Source of the DNA: Glaciihabitans sp. INWT7
GTDB lineage: Bacteria; Actinomycetota; Actinomycetes; Actinomycetales; Microbacteriaceae
Assembly: GCF_014217685.1 (NCBI RefSeq)
Contig: NZ_CP043653.1
Location: 2,050,419-2,114,418 of the forward strand
Reading direction: 5' to 3'
Length of the DNA: 64,000 nucleotides
Shown: positions 8,128 to 16,339 of the stretch, one piece after another
Layout: each line of letters begins with the position of its first letter
Numbering within the stretch: the first letter of the stretch is position 1
Made by a program: the position numbers and the translations under genes
Notes under the pieces: generated by a model
What the model was told of the DNA's origin: nothing
Database searches by the model: none
The model's input: the letters and a program-made list of their open reading frames with translations, nothing else

Positions 8128-10740
8128 CTAGATCGTGATCCGCTGCGCCTTGGGGTGCGGGCTCGCCACCGCGCAGAATTCCGCCAGCGCTGAACGGTTG
8201 TATGCGACCCCGTCGAGCACGGCCGCGCCCACCTCGCCCCGGAGGAACGCCCGCATGCCGTCCGCGAGACCGCTGTCGCTCTGGGGAACGATTCGGATCG
8301 GGGAATCCGGCAGTGCATCGCGAGCGGAATCGAACTCCACGGAGACGATCGGAAGCCCCGCGAGTGCGGCTTCGAGAAGCACCATCGGTTGGCCCTCGTA
8401 GTCGCTGGACAGCACGAAGCAGTCCGCCGCGGCGAGTACGGGGAAGGGGTTGGCGAATGGCCCGACGATGAACGCGACCGCGGAGAGACCGTGGCTGTCG
8501 ATGAGCTGCTTCAGGTGGTCGCGCAGCGGTCCATGACCGACGACGACGAGCCGCGCGGCGGGGGTATCCCGAGAGATCTCCGAGAAGGCGCGGATGAGTC
8601 GTGCCTGGTTCTTCTCCGGCGAGAAGCGACCGACGGTGACGAACCAGATGGCACCGTCGTCCCGCTGCATCCTGTCGATCCAGTCTGCGTCAATCCAGTC
8701 TCCGTCGATCCAGTCTCCGTCGAGCGAGGCCCGCCCACGACCCTGCGTCGCCGCCTCGTCCGTGTCGAACTCTTCGATCGACGACAGCGGGGCACGAAGC
8801 CCCTCGAGCACATGGGCTTCGTCCACGAGATTTCTCGCGAAGACGAATGCCTCGTCCGACAGTGAGTAGCGCGTGCCGAGGGCGTCGCGGTTGATGCGGT
8901 TCAGACTCTCCGACACCGAGACCAGGGCGTCGAAGTCCCGGTACACGCTGAACACCGCGGGTAGCGAACGCTTCATACGGCGACGACTGCCCACGAATCG
9001 CCGGGTCTCGAGCGACAGGTCGTTGTGCAGCCAGATGGAGCGGAAGGCCTGCGGGGAATGCAGGAGCAGAGAGGCCCAGAACGCGGTGTAGCCGCTGAAC
9101 TCGACGACGGAATCGAACTGCGTGTCGCCGAAGCAGCGTGCCCACTCTGTGCGCCACATCCGCTGCTCTACCGCGGTCTCCGGCCTGCGTCGCAGCTGGG
9201 GGTAGTGCTCCTGCAACCGACGAAACAGGTGCGTGACCTTGCTGCCGTTCATCCCGCCTTGGCGGTGGAATTGCCTCACCTGATGCGGGATGCGCTGCTG
9301 GTTCGACAGTTGCTGGGCGCGGCGCGGCCGGTTGAAGATCACCGACACGTCGTAGGCATCGTGGTCGATCGCCGCAAGCAGATTGAGGGCGGAGTTGGTG
9401 ATGCCATTCGACCGCATCCCTCCGATGCTCAGCAGTATCGACGTACGAGGGTCCTCTGCGAGAGACCGAGTTCGAGCGCGATCCGTCATCCCCCGGAAGA
9501 CGATGTCGACGACACGACGCGCGGCTCCCCCGTCGTCTTCCGGTGAGAAACGCTCTCTCCACTCGGCAGAGCGGGTGGCCGGTCCAGACGCGGCATCCGG
9601 GTCTTTCGAGTTGTTCGGGGCTTCCGAGTCTGTCGCGGTGAGGCAGGAGCGAATGGCTTCGCCGAGCTCCGAGAGCTGTGTCACCACCGGGCCCGGAAGC
9701 TCGTCGAGCGGAAAGTAGAGCCCGCGCGATGCGGAGTAGTCCAGATCGTCCGGGGTGAAGAACACGATGGGGCGCTCGAGCGGGAGGAAATCGAAGAAGA
9801 TCGACGAGTAGTCGGTGATGAGAATGTCGGTGATGCCCAGCATCAGGTTCGTCGGCAGGTCGTTCGAGACGAGGATCTCGCGGAATTCCGGGCGATCCCT
9901 CGCGAACCGGTGGACCACCTGGTGGGTCTTGAGCAGCACCAGGAATTCGGGTCCCACCTGGGCCTGGATCTCCTTCGCCTGTTCGAACAGCTCGTTCGCG
10001 TCGTCCGCCGGCGAACTGAAATCCGTTCCCTTCCAGGTGGGGGCGAACAGGATCACCGACCGATCGCCCAGCCTGATTCCATCGGCCTCTAGCCGGGATC
10101 GCACCACGATCGATTCCTCGGCGCGGAGGAACTGGCGGTCGACGCGAGGGTATCCCTCTTCGATGACCAGCCCGCGGAAGGCACCGCGCAAGCGATAGGC
10201 CTTCTCGTACATGCGCTCGGTCATGAACGGGTTCTGGGACAGCAGGAAGTCGGCGGCCACGAAGTTGCGCAGTGTGTTCGCGGAGTCGAGAGCGCCGTTG
10301 GGCATGTCGTAGCCCATGCGTTTGAGCGGCGTGCCGTGCCAGGTGTTGAGGTAGACCTGCCCGGGCCGCTTGCTGAACTCCGCGGGGAAAGTGGCGTTGT
10401 TCACCAGATAGCCGCTCGTCGCGAGGGCTCGAACATAGGCGAGAGAGCGTCGCCTGACAAAGCGCACCCTCCGATCGCCGGCGAATTCCGCCTGCACCGC
10501 CCGGTGTTCCCTCAGGCTGTCGAGCGCCCACACATGGTGGAGGTGGGCGAGGTCGGGAGATCGCAGGGCCTCCCGAAAGATGGCCTCGGGATTGCACAGC
10601 ACACCGTTTCCGGCGAAGGACTCGTACAAGACGACGTCTGCCCGCACGGCCCCGCGTCTCGCGAGAGCCTGGAGTTCGGCCCGGCTCGCTCCGCCTACGA
10701 GCCTGAGCAACTGGCGGATCAGACGGATGACTCGCGGCAT
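8128..10740 (-). CDS. Fused CDP-glycerol glycerophosphotransferase / GT4 glycosyltransferase
   Basis: A 870-residue cytoplasmic enzyme for a teichoic-acid-like polymer. Residues ~35-390 are a TagF/TarF-like (Glyphos_transf) domain with NTWHGTPLKRMGYD (H135) and LITDYSSIFFDF. Residues ~480-860 are a second, GT-B half ending in an intact GT4 domain. That domain carries GRFSPEKN with its Arg and Lys for NDP binding, VVGHGPLRDHL, and the E-x7-E motif in YEGQPMVLLEAA. ATG at 10740 has GAAAGAGAG upstream. Between the halves lies a tandem DWIDG repeat. The gene is divergent from the small ORF/GT-C unit and paralogous to 12666-15158. Confidence 0.87.
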   Translation of the reverse strand: MPRVIRLIRQLLRLVGGASRAELQALARRGAVRADVVLYESFAGNGVLCNPEAIFREALRSPDLAHLHHVWALDSLREHRAVQAEFAGDRRVRFVRRRSLAYVRALATSGYLVNNATFPAEFSKRPGQVYLNTWHGTPLKRMGYDMPNGALDSANTLRNFVAADFLLSQNPFMTERMYEKAYRLRGAFRGLVIEEGYPRVDRQFLRAEESIVVRSRLEADGIRLGDRSVILFAPTWKGTDFSSPADDANELFEQAKEIQAQVGPEFLVLLKTHQVVHRFARDRPEFREILVSNDLPTNLMLGITDILITDYSSIFFDFLPLERPIVFFTPDDLDYSASRGLYFPLDELPGPVVTQLSELGEAIRSCLTATDSEAPNNSKDPDAASGPATRSAEWRERFSPEDDGGAARRVVDIVFRGMTDRARTRSLAEDPRTSILLSIGGMRSNGITNSALNLLAAIDHDAYDVSVIFNRPRRAQQLSNQQRIPHQVRQFHRQGGMNGSKVTHLFRRLQEHYPQLRRRPETAVEQRMWRTEWARCFGDTQFDSVVEFSGYTAFWASLLLHSPQAFRSIWLHNDLSLETRRFVGSRRRMKRSLPAVFSVYRDFDALVSVSESLNRINRDALGTRYSLSDEAFVFARNLVDEAHVLEGLRAPLSSIEEFDTDEAATQGRGRASLDGDWIDGDWIDADWIDRMQRDDGAIWFVTVGRFSPEKNQARLIRAFSEISRDTPAARLVVVGHGPLRDHLKQLIDSHGLSAVAFIVGPFANPFPVLAAADCFVLSSDYEGQPMVLLEAALAGLPIVSVEFDSARDALPDSPIRIVPQSDSGLADGMRAFLRGEVGAAVLDGVAYNRSALAEFCAVASPHPKAQRITI
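8674..8722 (-). repeat. 15-bp in-frame tandem repeat in the glycerophosphotransferase gene
   Basis: Three 15-bp units (8674-8688, 8689-8703, 8704-8718) differ by only a few bases and encode repeated DWIDG/DWIDA in a loop just before the GT4 donor-binding domain. Length variation would keep the frame. Confidence 0.8.
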
Positions 10741-10811
10741 GGAGCTCTCTCTTTCGAACCGGCCGTTCAGCACAGCACACGGGAGAAGCGTGCTCGGCGG
10801 CCCCCCAGAAA

Positions 10812-10822
10812 GGTCTAAGAAT
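10812..10822 (-). promoter_or_regulatory. TTCTTAGA box for the glycerophosphotransferase gene
   Basis: Minus-strand ATTCTTAGACC lies ~73 bases before the ATG at 10740. No clean second half-site is visible at 11 bp. It faces another copy at 10856 serving the divergent unit. Confidence 0.4.
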
Positions 10823-10855
10823 GAGCCGCAATCTCCCGCTGCGGGGCGAGATGCA

Positions 10856-10865
10856 GTCTTAGAGC
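10856..10865 (+). promoter_or_regulatory. TCTTAGAG box for the small membrane ORF / GT-C unit
   Basis: GTCTTAGAGC lies at 10856-10865, about 62 bases before the GTG at 10927. GGCAGGCTGG follows at 10883, resembling the element downstream of the box at the PAP2, regulator and dedA genes. Confidence 0.4.
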
Positions 10866-10926
10866 CATCTGGGAGAGTGCTTGGCAGGCTGGCCCCCGAC
10901 AGGTTCGAGATCCCGGGAGGCGCTCT

Positions 10927-11133
10927 GTGGTGTGGCTGATATTCGGCGGTGTCGGCGTGCTGGTCATCGTTGCGGCGGTGTGCGTCTGGACCGTCGTCGC
11001 ACTGCTCGCAGAGGTCGGGGATGAACAGAGCGACGATCAGGACGCGGCGACAAGCGATCCCCTCGGTGTCGACGACCGTTCCGACAGCTCCTCCGAACGA
11101 AGGCGGGTTCACCACCGTGTCGCTCGCTACTGA
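10927..11133 (+). CDS. Small single-pass membrane protein upstream of GT-C enzyme
   Basis: A 68-residue predicted protein. Residues 2-28 form one strongly hydrophobic helix. The rest is a hydrophilic tail rich in Asp, Ser and Glu that ends in Arg/His. CGGGAGG stands just before the GTG at 10927, with a second GTG immediately after. Its end overlaps the GT-C start by 17 bases, so the two would be translationally coupled. The split composition of a helix plus a charged tail is what a real small membrane protein looks like and unlike a chance frame. I recognise no family. It could be an accessory or anchoring subunit for the glycosyltransferase. Confidence 0.55.
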   Translation: MVWLIFGGVGVLVIVAAVCVWTVVALLAEVGDEQSDDQDAATSDPLGVDDRSDSSSERRRVHHRVARY

Positions 11134-12679
11134 ACTCTCCGACAGCACCCCGTCGGCCCTCTCCCGAATGTGGGGATGGCGGCCGTCGTTTCGGTCTGGC
11201 CTGGCAGTCTTCCTCGGCGCCGTGGCCACCGCAATCTCCGCCTCCGGATCCTCGATTCCGTCGCTGTGGGGCGATGAGGCGGCAAGCGTCCTGTCCGCCG
11301 AGCGGTCGATCCCCTCCCTGTTCCGCATGCTCGGCAGCGTGGACGCCGTCCATGGCACCTACTACCTCTTCCTGCACTTCTGGGTTCAGGCGTTCGGCGC
11401 CTCGCCCTTCTCCGTGCGGTTCCCCAGCGCCATCGCTGTCGGCATCGCCGTGGCGGGCGTCGTCGTGCTCGGCTCGCGCCTCGGGGGAATCCGGGTCGCG
11501 GCCTTCGCCGGCATCATCGCCGTGATGCTGCCGCGCATCACCTACATGGGCGAAGAGGCTCGCGGGTATGCCATGAGCACGGCCGCCGTCGTCTGGCTGA
11601 CGATCCTGCTGCTTCACATCGTCGCCCGCGATCGGCCGGAAAGACGACTCTGGGCGGCCTATGCCGTCGGACTCGCCGCGTGCGGGTACCTGTTTCTCTT
11701 CAGCCTCCTGATCGTCGTCGCCCATGCGGTGGTGGCGCTGTCCCAGCGCCGCCCAGCCATCCTGCGCGGCTGGGCCCGCGCGACGCTCGGCGGCATACTG
11801 ATCGCCGGGCCGGTGATCGGTTTCGGCATCGGCGAGAGCGGACAGATCGCGTTCCTGGCGAACCGCGACTCCACCAACATCCGCACACTGGTCGTGACGC
11901 AGTGGTTCGGCAACAATCTGCTGGCGACCCTCGCCTGGATCCTCATCGCTGCCGCGATCATCGCCTGGGCCGTGGGCTCGCGCCGAAACCGCAGCTGGTT
12001 CGATGGCGCGGATCCCGATCCCGTCTCCGGTGCCCGGACTCCGGCCCTCGTGCCTCTTGCGGCGACCTGGCTGCTCGGCCCGCCGGCCATCTTGCTCGCG
12101 GTCAACTCCGTGCACGCGGTCTACTCCTCTCGCTACCTCTCCTTCGCGGTGCCCGCTGCGGCCCTCCTCATCGCATGGCTCGCGGCACGAATCCGCCCGC
12201 GCATCCTGGGGATCGGCCTTCTCGTCGCCGTCGTCAGCGCCTCCTCGATCAGTTATCTCAGCGAACGCACTCCCTTCGCCAAGAACAACAGTGACTGGGC
12301 GCAGGTCGCGCAGACCATCCAGGCGCACGCGCGGCCCGGTCAGGGCATGCTCTTCGACGAGGGGAGCCGCCCGTCCCGCGCCACCCGGCTGGCGATGCGC
12401 ACCTACCCGGCATCATTCGAGGGGCTGACGGATGTTGCGCTCAAGACCCCCTGGTACGACACGAGCAACTGGCACGATGCGGTGGTGCCGACGACGACTG
12501 TCGCGTCGAGACTCGACTCGCTGTATCGCTCCACCAAGACGGTCTGGTTGGTCGAGTACCGCCTGCCTGGCGCGGAGGCCGACACCTACGATAGATCGAT
12601 GCTGGCAGCGCAGGGATTCGTTGTGGTGGCGGAGTACCCGCAGCACACGAGTGTCGTGCTGGAACTCACTCGTCCGTGA
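11117..12679 (+). CDS. GT-C (GT39/PMT-like) membrane glycosyltransferase
   Basis: A 520-residue polytopic protein with about ten or more hydrophobic helices and a C-terminal external domain. The acidic pair in SLWGDEAAS (D53, E54) in the first external loop, followed by YYLFLHFW, is the hallmark of polyprenyl-phosphate-sugar-dependent GT-C transferases such as mannosyltransferases and ArnT-like enzymes. It would add a sugar to a wall polymer, lipid or protein on the outer face of the membrane. GTG at 11117, preceded by AAGGCGGG, is chosen over upstream starts because those add non-homologous sequence. Its 3' end overlaps the convergent paralogous gene by 14 bases. Confidence 0.8.
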   Translation: MSLATELSDSTPSALSRMWGWRPSFRSGLAVFLGAVATAISASGSSIPSLWGDEAASVLSAERSIPSLFRMLGSVDAVHGTYYLFLHFWVQAFGASPFSVRFPSAIAVGIAVAGVVVLGSRLGGIRVAAFAGIIAVMLPRITYMGEEARGYAMSTAAVVWLTILLLHIVARDRPERRLWAAYAVGLAACGYLFLFSLLIVVAHAVVALSQRRPAILRGWARATLGGILIAGPVIGFGIGESGQIAFLANRDSTNIRTLVVTQWFGNNLLATLAWILIAAAIIAWAVGSRRNRSWFDGADPDPVSGARTPALVPLAATWLLGPPAILLAVNSVHAVYSSRYLSFAVPAAALLIAWLAARIRPRILGIGLLVAVVSASSISYLSERTPFAKNNSDWAQVAQTIQAHARPGQGMLFDEGSRPSRATRLAMRTYPASFEGLTDVALKTPWYDTSNWHDAVVPTTTVASRLDSLYRSTKTVWLVEYRLPGAEADTYDRSMLAAQGFVVVAEYPQHTSVVLELTRP

Positions 12680-15158
12680 TCGCACCGATCGCCCGATAGA
12701 ACATCCCGATCGCCCGATCGTCGTGCGCGATCCAATCGATCGACGATGTGCCGACCCGGCCGGCGAGGAACTCGAGCATTCCCTCGGCCAACGCCCGGTC
12801 GTCCGCCGGCACCTCGAGGATCCCCGAGAGCGGCGCGACGCCGGGCTCCGGGCCGATCACCCGCACGACGGGCAATCCGAGCACCCGCGCTTCCCCGAGC
12901 ACCCTCGCAGTTCGGGCACCGCCGGCGGCGAAGACGACGCAGTCTGCCTGAGCCAGGAGGGCGAAGGGATTGGTTCGGTAGCCCACGAGGGCGACGACCT
13001 CGGTGAGGCCGAGTGCGACCAGCTCCGCGCCGAGGATCGAAGCGAGCGGACCATCCCCCACCACCAGCAGTCGCGAAGCCGGTACAGCGGCGTGAACCAC
13101 AGCAAAGGCGCGGACCAGTCGTACCGGGTCGTTCTCCACGGTGAGCCGGCCCAGCGACACGAAGATCCGGTCCACCGCTGTCGCGGCTCCGGAGCCCTCG
13201 TCACCCAGCCAGTCGGGCAGCGCAGCATCTCCGTCGTGTTGCTCTGTCGGCAGTGCCGCGCGGGCGAGGATGCTCGCGCCACCGATCACCGGCTCCGCCA
13301 CGGCCACGGGCCGAAGGGAGGGATGCTGCGGAGGTGAGGGCGAGACCAGACGATCGTAGGCGTCGTAGAGGACATCTCTCTCCGTGTCGCCGACCCCCGG
13401 CCGATCAGAGGAGGCGTCCTCCGCCACCGCCGCGACGGGGTCATCCCTCAGCCAGATCGAGCGTTCCGAGTCGGGCGACTGCAGCATCAGGGTCGCCCAG
13501 AACGGGCTGGTACCGGCGAAGTCGAGCGTGAAGTCGAAGGCGGCAGAGCCGAAGCATCGATCCCACTCGTCCCGCCACAGGTCTCCTGACCGGAGAGGCG
13601 TCCGAGGGCGAGCACCCGAGCGGACTGATGCCGCGCCCGTCGACCGCAACCGGGCAAGGGCGAGTTTCGATCCGTTCATACCGCCGACCCGAGCGAACTG
13701 ACGCACCCGCGGATGCAGCAACCGCTGCTGGTCGAGCACCGGCCGGGAGCGGAGGGGCGGGAAGATCACCGACACATCGAACCGCGAGTGGTCGATCTTC
13801 TCGAGCAGCGCGATGAGTTCCGCGGTGATCGCCCCCGGCCTCATGTTTCCGGCGGCGATGAGAATTCTCCGCCGCCCATCGCCGGGCAGCGGCGCGACCG
13901 CATAGCCCTCGGGCTTGCCGCGAAAGACGATGTCGAGGATGCGCTGCGTGGCGCTTCCGTCTTCGCGCGCGACGAACCGCGCCTGCATTTCCCGATAGTT
14001 CGACGCGACCCGGTCGTCGACGCCTCCGTGGTCGAAGTCGTTGATGGCACCGGCCAGTTGCGTGACGTTCGGCACCACGGGGCCCGGCCAGAGCTCCGGC
14101 TCGATATAGAGACCGCGGTAGCCGCTGTAGTCCGCGAGATCCGGGGTGAGGAAGAAGATCGGCCGGCCGGTGGCGAGGAAGTCGAAGAAGATGCTCGAAT
14201 AATCGGTGACAAGCACGTCGGTGACGCCAAGGATGACGTTCGACGGGATCTCGTTGGGAACCACGCGATCGCGCAGCCCCGGGATGTCCGCCGCGAAGCG
14301 GTGCACCACCTGGTGCGTCTTCAGCAGCACCACGTACTTCGTCGTGTCGATCTGCGACTCGAGCTGGTCGATCCGTGACACCAGCTCGCTGATGTCGTAT
14401 TCCGGCCGGGAGAACGAGGTCCCCTTCCAGGTGGGCGCGTAGAGGATGATCCGGCGTCCGTGCAGAGCCAATCCCCCGGCTTCGAGGCCGGCTCGCGCCG
14501 CGGCCACGGAGGGTTCATCCATGAATTGGCGATCGATCCGGGGGTAGCCCTCCTCGATGATCCGCCCGGGATAGATGTTGCCAAGGCGGTGGGCATCCTC
14601 GTACAGATGCTCGGTCATGAACGGGCTGGCCGAGAGGAGGAAGTCGGCCGAGAGGAGGTTGCGGATGACGTTGGCCACGCGGGTGGCCGGATCCCCGATG
14701 TCGAAGCCCATGCGCTTGAGCGGCGTGCCGTGCCAGGTATTCAGGTAGACCTGGCCGCCGCGTTTGCCGAACTCTGTCGGGAATGTCGCGTTGTTGACAA
14801 GAAAACCCGCGGTGGCGAGTGCCCGAAAGTAGCCGAAGGTACCGGGGCGGACGAACCGTACGGAGTGCGATCCCGAGAACTCCCGCGCGACAGCCGGGTT
14901 CTCCCGTCGACTCGTGAGCACCCAGACATGGGTTAGATCGCCGAACTCCGGGTCGGCGAGAAGGGCCCGGAAGATGGCCTCCGGATTGCAGAGCATCCCG
15001 TTTCCGGCGAATGACTCGTAGAGGACCATCCTTGGACGCACCGCTCGGCGTCGCCAGAACGCGTAGACCTCGGTCTTGGCCGCCTGCCGAAGACGGCGGG
15101 CAAGGGCGAGGAGACGGCGACGGATGCCGGTGAGGCCGGGCACCTCCGTCAGACTCAT
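12666..15158 (-). CDS. Second glycerophosphotransferase / degenerate GT4 fusion
   Basis: A 830-residue paralogue of 8128-10740. The N-terminal TagF-like domain is intact: YLNTWHGTPLKRMGFDIGD and LVTDYSSIFFDFL are both present. The C-terminal GT4 half is eroded. The donor-binding GRFSPEKN of the paralogue reads GRLTVEND here, and the Glu that starts the E-x7-E motif is Ala in FAAGGARTARVLGEA. The GT half is therefore probably catalytically dead or structural, while glycerol-phosphate transfer may persist. ATG at 15158 has AGGTGG in front. The frame continues 10 codons upstream without homology. It lies 63 bases downstream of the heliorhodopsin gene on the same strand. Confidence 0.83.
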   Translation of the reverse strand: MSLTEVPGLTGIRRRLLALARRLRQAAKTEVYAFWRRRAVRPRMVLYESFAGNGMLCNPEAIFRALLADPEFGDLTHVWVLTSRRENPAVAREFSGSHSVRFVRPGTFGYFRALATAGFLVNNATFPTEFGKRGGQVYLNTWHGTPLKRMGFDIGDPATRVANVIRNLLSADFLLSASPFMTEHLYEDAHRLGNIYPGRIIEEGYPRIDRQFMDEPSVAAARAGLEAGGLALHGRRIILYAPTWKGTSFSRPEYDISELVSRIDQLESQIDTTKYVVLLKTHQVVHRFAADIPGLRDRVVPNEIPSNVILGVTDVLVTDYSSIFFDFLATGRPIFFLTPDLADYSGYRGLYIEPELWPGPVVPNVTQLAGAINDFDHGGVDDRVASNYREMQARFVAREDGSATQRILDIVFRGKPEGYAVAPLPGDGRRRILIAAGNMRPGAITAELIALLEKIDHSRFDVSVIFPPLRSRPVLDQQRLLHPRVRQFARVGGMNGSKLALARLRSTGAASVRSGARPRTPLRSGDLWRDEWDRCFGSAAFDFTLDFAGTSPFWATLMLQSPDSERSIWLRDDPVAAVAEDASSDRPGVGDTERDVLYDAYDRLVSPSPPQHPSLRPVAVAEPVIGGASILARAALPTEQHDGDAALPDWLGDEGSGAATAVDRIFVSLGRLTVENDPVRLVRAFAVVHAAVPASRLLVVGDGPLASILGAELVALGLTEVVALVGYRTNPFALLAQADCVVFAAGGARTARVLGEARVLGLPVVRVIGPEPGVAPLSGILEVPADDRALAEGMLEFLAGRVGTSSIDWIAHDDRAIGMFYRAIGAITDE

Positions 15159-15221
15159 CACCACCTCACTATAAAGTCCGCCGCGCACCGCGCCGTCTGG
15201 GGTGAGCGGAACTCCCCGGCG

Positions 15222-16058
15222 CTAGAGCTGCCCGCTCACGACGCCCACCACGACCAGCCAGGCGAAGACGGAGGTGCTCGCCAGACTGAGCACGATGTGC
15301 ACGACCTCTCCCGACGACGACGACCGGGCCGAATCGATCCGCTGCTGCTCTTGCCGGTTCTCGGGCAGGAGACGGTTCTCGGGCAGGAGACGGTTCTCGG
15401 GCTGGAGACGGTTCTCGGGCGATAACCGGTGCTCAAGCAATAACCAGTGCACGAGGAAGAAGGCGAACGAGAACGCGAGCATCACCAGGGTGATGACGCG
15501 ACCGAGACCGGATGGTGACTGTGCCACGAGCAATCCGGCGATCTGGTGGAAGGCGATCACGCCCCACGGAACGATTCCGATCGCCGCGCCGAACCAGAGG
15601 GGAAGCATCCGCTCGGTCGCCGCTCGTTCGGTGCGCTCTTCGAGCACGAAGAACAGGGTCATCGCGCTCGTCGCGGCATAGGACAGCACGAGGGCACCGA
15701 TGTCGCTGATGCCGTTCAGTTGGGCGACGAGAAACACGACGATCGACGAGCTGAAGGCGAACTCGATCCAGCGTGCGGGGTGGCGACCGCCGGCCACCTG
15801 GGCGGAATAGACCGGGAAGATTCCCGGGGTGATGGCGAGCAGGCGAGCCACCCCCACGAGCAGGCAGAGCGCGACGACGCCGAATCCGAGGTCGAGGCGA
15901 ACGAGCACGACGGGATGTGGGCCTGCGGCGAGGTCGAGAGCGATCGGCAGGAACACGCGCGAGGGAGCCGACGCGAGCACGATCCACAGCGCGATCGCCT
16001 CGATCACGAGCAGCGCCCCGGACAAGCCGGAGATTCGCCGAAGGTGGGCGCTCCTCAC
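15222..16058 (-). CDS. Heliorhodopsin-family protein lacking the retinal-binding lysine
   Basis: A 278-residue seven-helix protein that matches heliorhodopsins. ARWIEFAFSSSIVVFLVAQL (residues 95-114) carries the counter-ion Glu99. NGISDIGALV and LPLWFGAAIGIVPWG follow, then VLSLASTSVFAW in TM7. In heliorhodopsins the TM7 motif is SLVAKS, with Lys binding retinal. Here it reads SLASTS, with Thr262 (ACC) at that position. The whole protein contains no lysine, so a Schiff base cannot form. The TM6-TM7 linker holds hexapeptide repeats of the RLLPEN type. GTG at 16058 overlaps the stop of the preceding gene by 4 bases, so the two are coupled. The role is unknown. Confidence 0.85.
   Translation of the reverse strand: MRSAHLRRISGLSGALLVIEAIALWIVLASAPSRVFLPIALDLAAGPHPVVLVRLDLGFGVVALCLLVGVARLLAITPGIFPVYSAQVAGGRHPARWIEFAFSSSIVVFLVAQLNGISDIGALVLSYAATSAMTLFFVLEERTERAATERMLPLWFGAAIGIVPWGVIAFHQIAGLLVAQSPSGLGRVITLVMLAFSFAFFLVHWLLLEHRLSPENRLQPENRLLPENRLLPENRQEQQRIDSARSSSSGEVVHIVLSLASTSVFAWLVVVGVVSGQL
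15355..15444 (-). repeat. 18-bp in-frame repeat in the heliorhodopsin TM6-TM7 linker
   Basis: Units at 15355, 15373 and 15391 are nearly identical. Units at 15409 and 15427 are more diverged. They encode hexapeptides RLLPEN/RLQPEN/RLSPEN, which extend a loop that should be cytoplasmic given the inverted heliorhodopsin topology. Confidence 0.85.
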
Positions 16059-16339
16059 CGGCGGCCCACCCGCCAGCCGAGACAGAAGACCAGCGCGGCG
16101 ATGCCGACACCGATCAGGATCGCGCCCGCCGCATGCAACGTCGAGGAGAACCATGGCGTCGGCACGAAGGTGGTGCTGCTGAGCGGCACAAAGGCGAACC
16201 ATCCGAAACTCGCGGGCGGATCCGGCCTGAGCAGGAGGATCAACCCGGTGATGGCCAGCACCCCGGCGATGAGCGGCAGGACGACGCCGAGCAGCAGTTG
16301 GCCGCGCTGGCGTGGGGAACCTGCGGGCCGTCCGGACAT
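16055..16339 (-). CDS. Small two-TM membrane protein coupled to heliorhodopsin
   Basis: A 94-residue protein with a basic N-terminus, TM1 at about 15-37, an external loop of ~30 residues containing FVPTPWFSS, and TM2 at about 66-88 ending in RVGRR. I recognise no family. Its stop codon overlaps the heliorhodopsin start (GTGA), so the two proteins are made together and may form a complex. ATG at 16339 has a weak AGG upstream. No TTCTTAGA box is seen upstream of this unit. Confidence 0.65.
   Translation of the reverse strand: MSGRPAGSPRQRGQLLLGVVLPLIAGVLAITGLILLLRPDPPASFGWFAFVPLSSTTFVPTPWFSSTLHAAGAILIGVGIAALVFCLGWRVGRR

Follow-up and report, generated by a model that had tools for sequence, protein, structure and literature searches.

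Heliorhodopsins (HeRs), such as 48C12 and the archaeal TaHeR, are described by the TM7 lysine that binds retinal, and what they do is still debated. They are captured by the Pfam family PF18761 and the NCBIfam equivalog model NF038020 and form dimers (PMC6951262). In 48C12, the retinal-binding lysine is K241, the counter-ion is E107 and two aromatic residues, Y108 and F206, sandwich retinal (PMC6951262). HeRs also have a membrane fenestration at the ionone ring (PMC9385722), and a canonical HeR modulates an ABC transporter (PMC11109279). Rhodopsins devoid of the retinal lysine are already known among type-1 proteins: Rh-noK, freshwater FArhodopsins and retinal-less haloarchaeal rhodopsins share the seven-helix rhodopsin fold and are often found in genomes with working rhodopsins (PMC10308929). 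In Rh-noK, a lysine has been introduced at the retinal site. Here we describe a clade of lysine-less proteins that belong to the HeRs (type 3), a separate loss. Literature searches found no report of a lysine-less HeR, and none was found in PMC10308929, PMC9601134, PMC8612252, PMC11109279, PMC12227055 and PMC12422013, although this is no proof of absence since most subscription papers lay outside the searches.

A heliorhodopsin homologue without lysine

The starting point was a 64,000-nucleotide stretch of the Glaciihabitans sp. INWT7 chromosome (NZ_CP043653.1, positions 2,050,419 to 2,114,418), hereafter the window; unless otherwise stated, coordinates refer to it. An initial annotation made from the sequence alone had described an intact reading frame at 15222-16058 encoding a 278-residue HeR homologue with the TM3 counter-ion Glu (E99), a threonine (Thr262, ACC) at the retinal-lysine site and no lysine at all. 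This observation was confirmed, with the addition that the gene lies on the minus strand (16058..15222), a point the annotation did not state. The frame has 278 codons, is stop-free, contains no lysine codon and begins with a GTG, a start that agrees with that of its relative at locus L001 (see below). Codon 99 (15764..15762, minus strand) is Glu and codon 262 (15275..15273, minus strand) is ACC.

The protein is a HeR by profile, scoring 111.4 bits against Pfam PF18761 (cut-off 26.7) and 107.4 bits against NF038020 (cut-off 100). The best stretch covers residues 14-206 (Pfam) or 6-206 (NCBIfam), TM7 being found only in a second, weaker stretch; however, phmmer aligns the TM7 segment ivlslastsvfaw to ivlslvaksalaw of 48C12, with Thr262 at K241. 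A phmmer search of the PDB returned only HeRs (6 distinct sequences at E up to 1), and Heliorhodopsin is the only Pfam family found at E up to 1. The protein therefore does not match the type-1 profile that would be expected of an Rh-noK or a FArhodopsin, the two PF01036 hits of the host genome lying elsewhere. The initial annotation had named, as findings that would overturn it, a profile match outside the HeR family or a lysine aligned at the retinal site; neither was obtained.

The AlphaFold2 model of the window protein (pLDDT 87.2, pTM 0.83) displays seven transmembrane helices and, between TM1 and TM2, the two strands of the HeR β-hairpin (residues 36-41 and 50-56). The first ten Foldseek hits, which are the only ones with E below 0.001, are HeRs, the best being HeR crystal structures (best E 4.7e-10, TM-score 0.82 by target). 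The N-terminus and the TM2-3, TM4-5 and TM6-7 loops appear rich in arginine, a charge pattern that resembles, by eye only and without a topology program, that of an N-inside protein.

Lysine-less HeRs form a subfamily in Microbacteriaceae

A scan of contigs yielded four relatives at 47-57% identity, from Frigoribacterium sp. CG_9.8, two Frigoribacterium MAGs and another Microbacteriaceae MAG, none of which has the lysine. We then searched 398 sampled Microbacteriaceae genomes with the Pfam profile and found HeR matches in 79 of them. These matches fall into two kinds by score, with a gap between 132 and 277 bits. All 28 low-scoring places, the window included, were examined; one (locus L049) is a truncated canonical HeR without TM7 and was dropped. 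The other 27, one per genome, all lack the lysine, the site being occupied by T (8), A (5), P (3), V (2), S (2), G (2), F (2), L (2) or R (1). Twenty of them have no lysine at all and seven have a single one, always outside TM7. By contrast, all 66 high-scoring places have the lysine. Ten of the 27 genomes, including that of CG_9.8, hold both kinds. HeR duplication in the family is not limited to the lysine-less clade, since four streamlined genomes (G145, G154, G299 and G394, from genera g14 and g31, 0.9-1.7 Mb) each hold two high-scoring, lysine-bearing HeRs.

A sequencing or frame artefact can be rejected, because three other loci (L001, L002 and L053) share the SLASTS motif exactly, two (L003 and L056) differ by one residue, and 27 of 27 frames are open. 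An alignment artefact at TM7 can be rejected without relying on the alignment, because no member has more than one lysine and none of these lies in TM7. Note that degenerate members of the clade fall below the profile cut-offs (L071 for Pfam; L060, L067 and L071 for NCBIfam). Nevertheless, L067, which lacks the TM3 Glu, gives a model (pLDDT 80.9, pTM 0.77) whose only Foldseek hits with E below 0.001 are again ten HeRs, even though its hairpin is poorly predicted.

No lysine-less relative was found outside Microbacteriaceae. Searches with an alignment of the 27 proteins over 396 genomes of the order, 396 of the phylum and 246 of the class detected HeRs in 26, 107 and 46 genomes, respectively, the window's own genome being included each time and one other Microbacteriaceae in the first. 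Of the 178 matched places outside the family, 173 carry the lysine, and five (L210, L286, L287, L290 and L291) do not show TM7 because of contig ends, breaks or doubtful matches; two matches with an inner stop were read in pieces as they stand. So, in these samples, the loss is confined to Microbacteriaceae. A mobile or viral origin is not indicated either: there was no match in phage records or, with patterns of the clade, in viral contigs, and plasmids gave two HeRs, both with the lysine. One of these, a canonical HeR, lies on a small mobilizable plasmid of Lactococcus petauri (NZ_CP141705.1) between an IS6 transposase and a recombinase.

The lysine-less clade is nested among lysine-bearing HeRs and under purifying selection

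In a tree of 71 rows, the 27 lysine-less and 44 canonical proteins are separated by a single branch (SH-aLRT 100). With TaHeR as outgroup and five long-branch rows left out, the lysine-less clade (22 rows, support 100, stem 1.25) lies inside the lysine-bearing actinobacterial HeRs, although its sister group is not firmly placed (support 89). The lysine was thus most simply lost once.

The fast evolution of the lysine-less proteins, the loss of function-linked residues and their patchy presence (4 of 10 sampled genomes of the window's genus) might suggest decaying remnants of HeRs without function. However, dN/dS ratios computed with YN00 for six closer pairs are 0.25, 0.08, 0.07, 0.13, 0.14 and 0.11; for the seven other pairs of the 13 examined only NG86 values were obtained, and NG86 dN is below dS in all 13 pairs. 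Together with the 27 intact frames and the presence of new clade-wide invariant residues, this makes decay very unlikely.

Remodeling of the retinal site

To determine what else changed, we compared 48 lysine-bearing rows with the 27 lysine-less ones (48C12 numbering). Besides K241 (48 to 0), the clade has lost, in most or all members, F206 (48 to 1) and Y108 (48 to 3), which sandwich retinal, as well as H23 (48 to 3), H80 (48 to 1, with Arg in 21), N138 (47 to 0) and, less completely, S237 (48 to 13). H23, H80, Y108, N138 and F206 are all replaced in the window protein, which has F100 and S197 at the sites of Y108 and F206, F100 being still aromatic. P172 and W173, the TM5 Pro-Trp, are kept in 27 of 27, whereas the counter-ion site is Glu in 20, Asp in 4 and Ala in 3.

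Conversely, new conserved residues appear in the clade. Invariant in 27 of 27 (window numbering, all codons on the minus strand) are N115 (15714..15716, site C123 of 48C12) at the extracellular end of TM3; Y127 (15678..15680, site F135) at the extracellular start of TM4; G166 and A169 (sites 174 and 177); T190 (15489..15491, site I199) in the extracellular half of TM6; and L194 (site 203). G166 and A169 belong, with Q172 (site 180, Gln in 23 and Glu in 4), to a new TM5 motif that follows the Pro-Trp (codons 166-172, 15543..15563). D56 (22 of 27) and D119 (16 Asp, 8 Glu) add to them. By the helices of the model and assuming an N-inside topology, these residues sit in the extracellular half. Site conservation in TM7 falls from 0.63-0.67 to 0.37-0.40 and, relative to the group mean, conservation moves from the cytoplasmic to the extracellular half (p 3e-5). 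Note that this comparison treats sites as independent and uses groups of unequal divergence (37% against 53% mean identity), and that within the clade alone the extracellular half is not significantly more conserved (p 0.07). The TM6-TM7 loop is variable in relatives. In the window it holds four copies of a six-residue repeat, LxPENR (15354..15425, minus strand), derived from an 18-bp tandem repeat (3.7 copies by TRF, 15355-15420), whereas the repeats are STAQ-like in L001 and RRRDQ-like in L002 and L003, as if the loop kept growing by repeat expansion.

Lysine is nearly absent from the whole protein, not only from TM7. Zero lysine in 20 of 27 members compares with 2 of 35 multi-TM proteins encoded around these genes (Fisher 2e-8), a value that overstates the difference since the 27 are related, our choice of start codons affects the N-termini, and the background comprises only proteins near the loci. 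In four genomes with both kinds, the canonical HeR has 4, 6, 6 and 7 lysines and the lysine-less one 0-1. Base composition alone is thus a disfavored explanation, but it does contribute: 3 of 38 canonical HeRs, from loci of 71-76% G+C, have the retinal lysine as their only one. The rest is unexplained.

A putative dark heliorhodopsin

Taken together, these data lead us to favor, with moderate confidence, the view that the gene encodes a member of a derived subfamily of HeRs: an actinobacterial HeR lost the retinal lysine, and the protein was kept and diversified within Microbacteriaceae. It is still predicted to fold as a seven-helix HeR with the extracellular β-hairpin, but it cannot bind retinal as a Schiff base in TM7. 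In this view, the protein most likely works in the dark: a remodeled cavity in the extracellular half of TM3-TM6 would bind another small ligand or ion, or a partner membrane protein, and pass this on through the HeR scaffold. The descent, the loss of the lysine, the selection and the changed pattern of conservation are established by our analysis, whereas the fold is a prediction, and the shape of the pocket, the ligand or partner role and the absence of a light response are inferred. A more specific possibility, which we hold as tentative and somewhat less likely than not, is that the whole subfamily has become a chromophore-free receptor, the retinal cavity having been rebuilt with small and polar residues (G166, A169, Q/E172, T190, N115, Y127, D56) into an extracellular-side binding site for a new ligand or ion, so that a light receptor turned into a dark chemical sensor or binding protein.

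The initial annotation had suggested a repurposed, light-independent or non-covalent sensor, and this interpretation is only partly supported. Repurposing without covalent retinal is well supported by the single clade, the purifying selection and the loss of much more of the retinal site than the lysine; light independence is likely but remains an inference; a sensor role is not shown. The argument from the retained counter-ion is weak, given the variability of this site across the clade. Non-covalent binding of retinal is not excluded but is made less likely by the loss, in most members, of both residues that sandwich retinal in 48C12.

A lysine-less clade kept by selection, in some genomes with no other rhodopsin detected, separates the function of the scaffold from light and gives a natural control for what a HeR does besides absorbing photons. 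It also reveals a blind spot: Bulzu et al. accepted only sequences with a TM7 lysine as rhodopsins (PMC9601134), whereas the NCBIfam 'heliorhodopsin' model scores the window protein above its cut-off, so that such proteins can be either discarded or misnamed.

Co-occurrence with other rhodopsins and retinal synthesis

The host genome carries a homologue of the retinal synthase Blh (a β-carotene dioxygenase, PF15461) next to a lycopene-cyclase-like gene, and two type-1 rhodopsins with lysine, one of which (2197285-2197977 of the host contig, outside the window) is a CryoRhodopsin by sequence (382 bits to 8r0k). Over the 27 genomes with the lysine-less protein, Blh is found in 18 and type-1 rhodopsin in 23, among them G433, whose match is split in two. 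Type-1 rhodopsin is found in 92 of the 371 other genomes (115 genomes in all, 113 over the cut-off; Fisher 4e-10). By genus, counting a genus if any sampled member has one, the figures are 10 of 10 against 18 of 75 (p 4e-6). These tests are not corrected for phylogeny or sampling depth, and co-occurrence is uneven: in genus g8, 1 of 9 type-1-bearing genomes has the lysine-less protein, and a test within genus g1 alone (4 of 4 against 2 of 6) is not significant (p 0.08).

This association speaks against the dark reading insofar as it points to a link with retinal biology, and a light-linked life or role remains possible. In particular, the protein might bind retinal or a carotenoid non-covalently and serve as a carrier, store or helper for the other rhodopsins of the cell, a possibility with which the HeR fenestration is compatible. 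The avoidance of lysine in the whole protein would also fit, we speculate, a protein that meets a reactive aldehyde. We nevertheless consider this main alternative unlikely because of the loss of the sandwich residues and because three genomes that are 98-99% complete (G016, G202 and G328) have the lysine-less protein with neither Blh, type-1 rhodopsin nor canonical HeR detected, as does G362 (81% complete). At least there, the protein seems to work without retinal made in the cell.

Alternatively, the protein might be a dark subunit that forms mixed dimers with canonical HeR or type-1 rhodopsins and modulates them, as speculated for Rh-noK (PMC10308929). In line with this idea, HeRs are dimers and canonical HeR is found in 10 of the 27 genomes with the lysine-less protein against 52 of the 371 without (Fisher p 0.004, not corrected for phylogeny). 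However, 17 of the 27 genomes have no canonical HeR detected, the four genomes listed above have no other rhodopsin detected, and, within up to 6 kb on each side, 0 of 27 loci have a second HeR or a relative of the host's two type-1 rhodopsins. We therefore regard this possibility as unlikely.

Genomic neighborhood

The genes directly beside the lysine-less HeR gene differ between genera, and no conserved operon partner was found. In L001, L002 and L003, the gene lies downstream of an ABC ATPase and an ABC-2 permease gene on the same strand (families tested for L001 only), with a small ORF between in L003. Given the modulation of an ABC transporter by a canonical HeR, the protein could be a regulator or scaffold for membrane transporters, independent of ligand and light, but this is improbable since the window and the other genera lack this arrangement. 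In the window, the gene is instead preceded by a 94-codon ORF (16055..16339, minus strand), whose product has two hydrophobic stretches and no Pfam family and whose stop overlaps the HeR start by four bases (GTGA); among the loci compared, a homologue was found only in L003 (and its copy L016). Downstream, two long similar ORFs (8128-11358 and 12666-15188, minus strand), which cluster together, look by eye like CDP-glycerol glycerophosphotransferase-type genes. Finally, in genus g104 (L055, L060, L061, L063, L065, L067 and L068), the lysine-less HeR gene sits at one conserved place near tRNA-Met, taken here as synteny only, and a gene that looks by eye glycosyltransferase-like, yet its sequence differs greatly between species (about 30% identity between some), so it evolves fast at a fixed locus.
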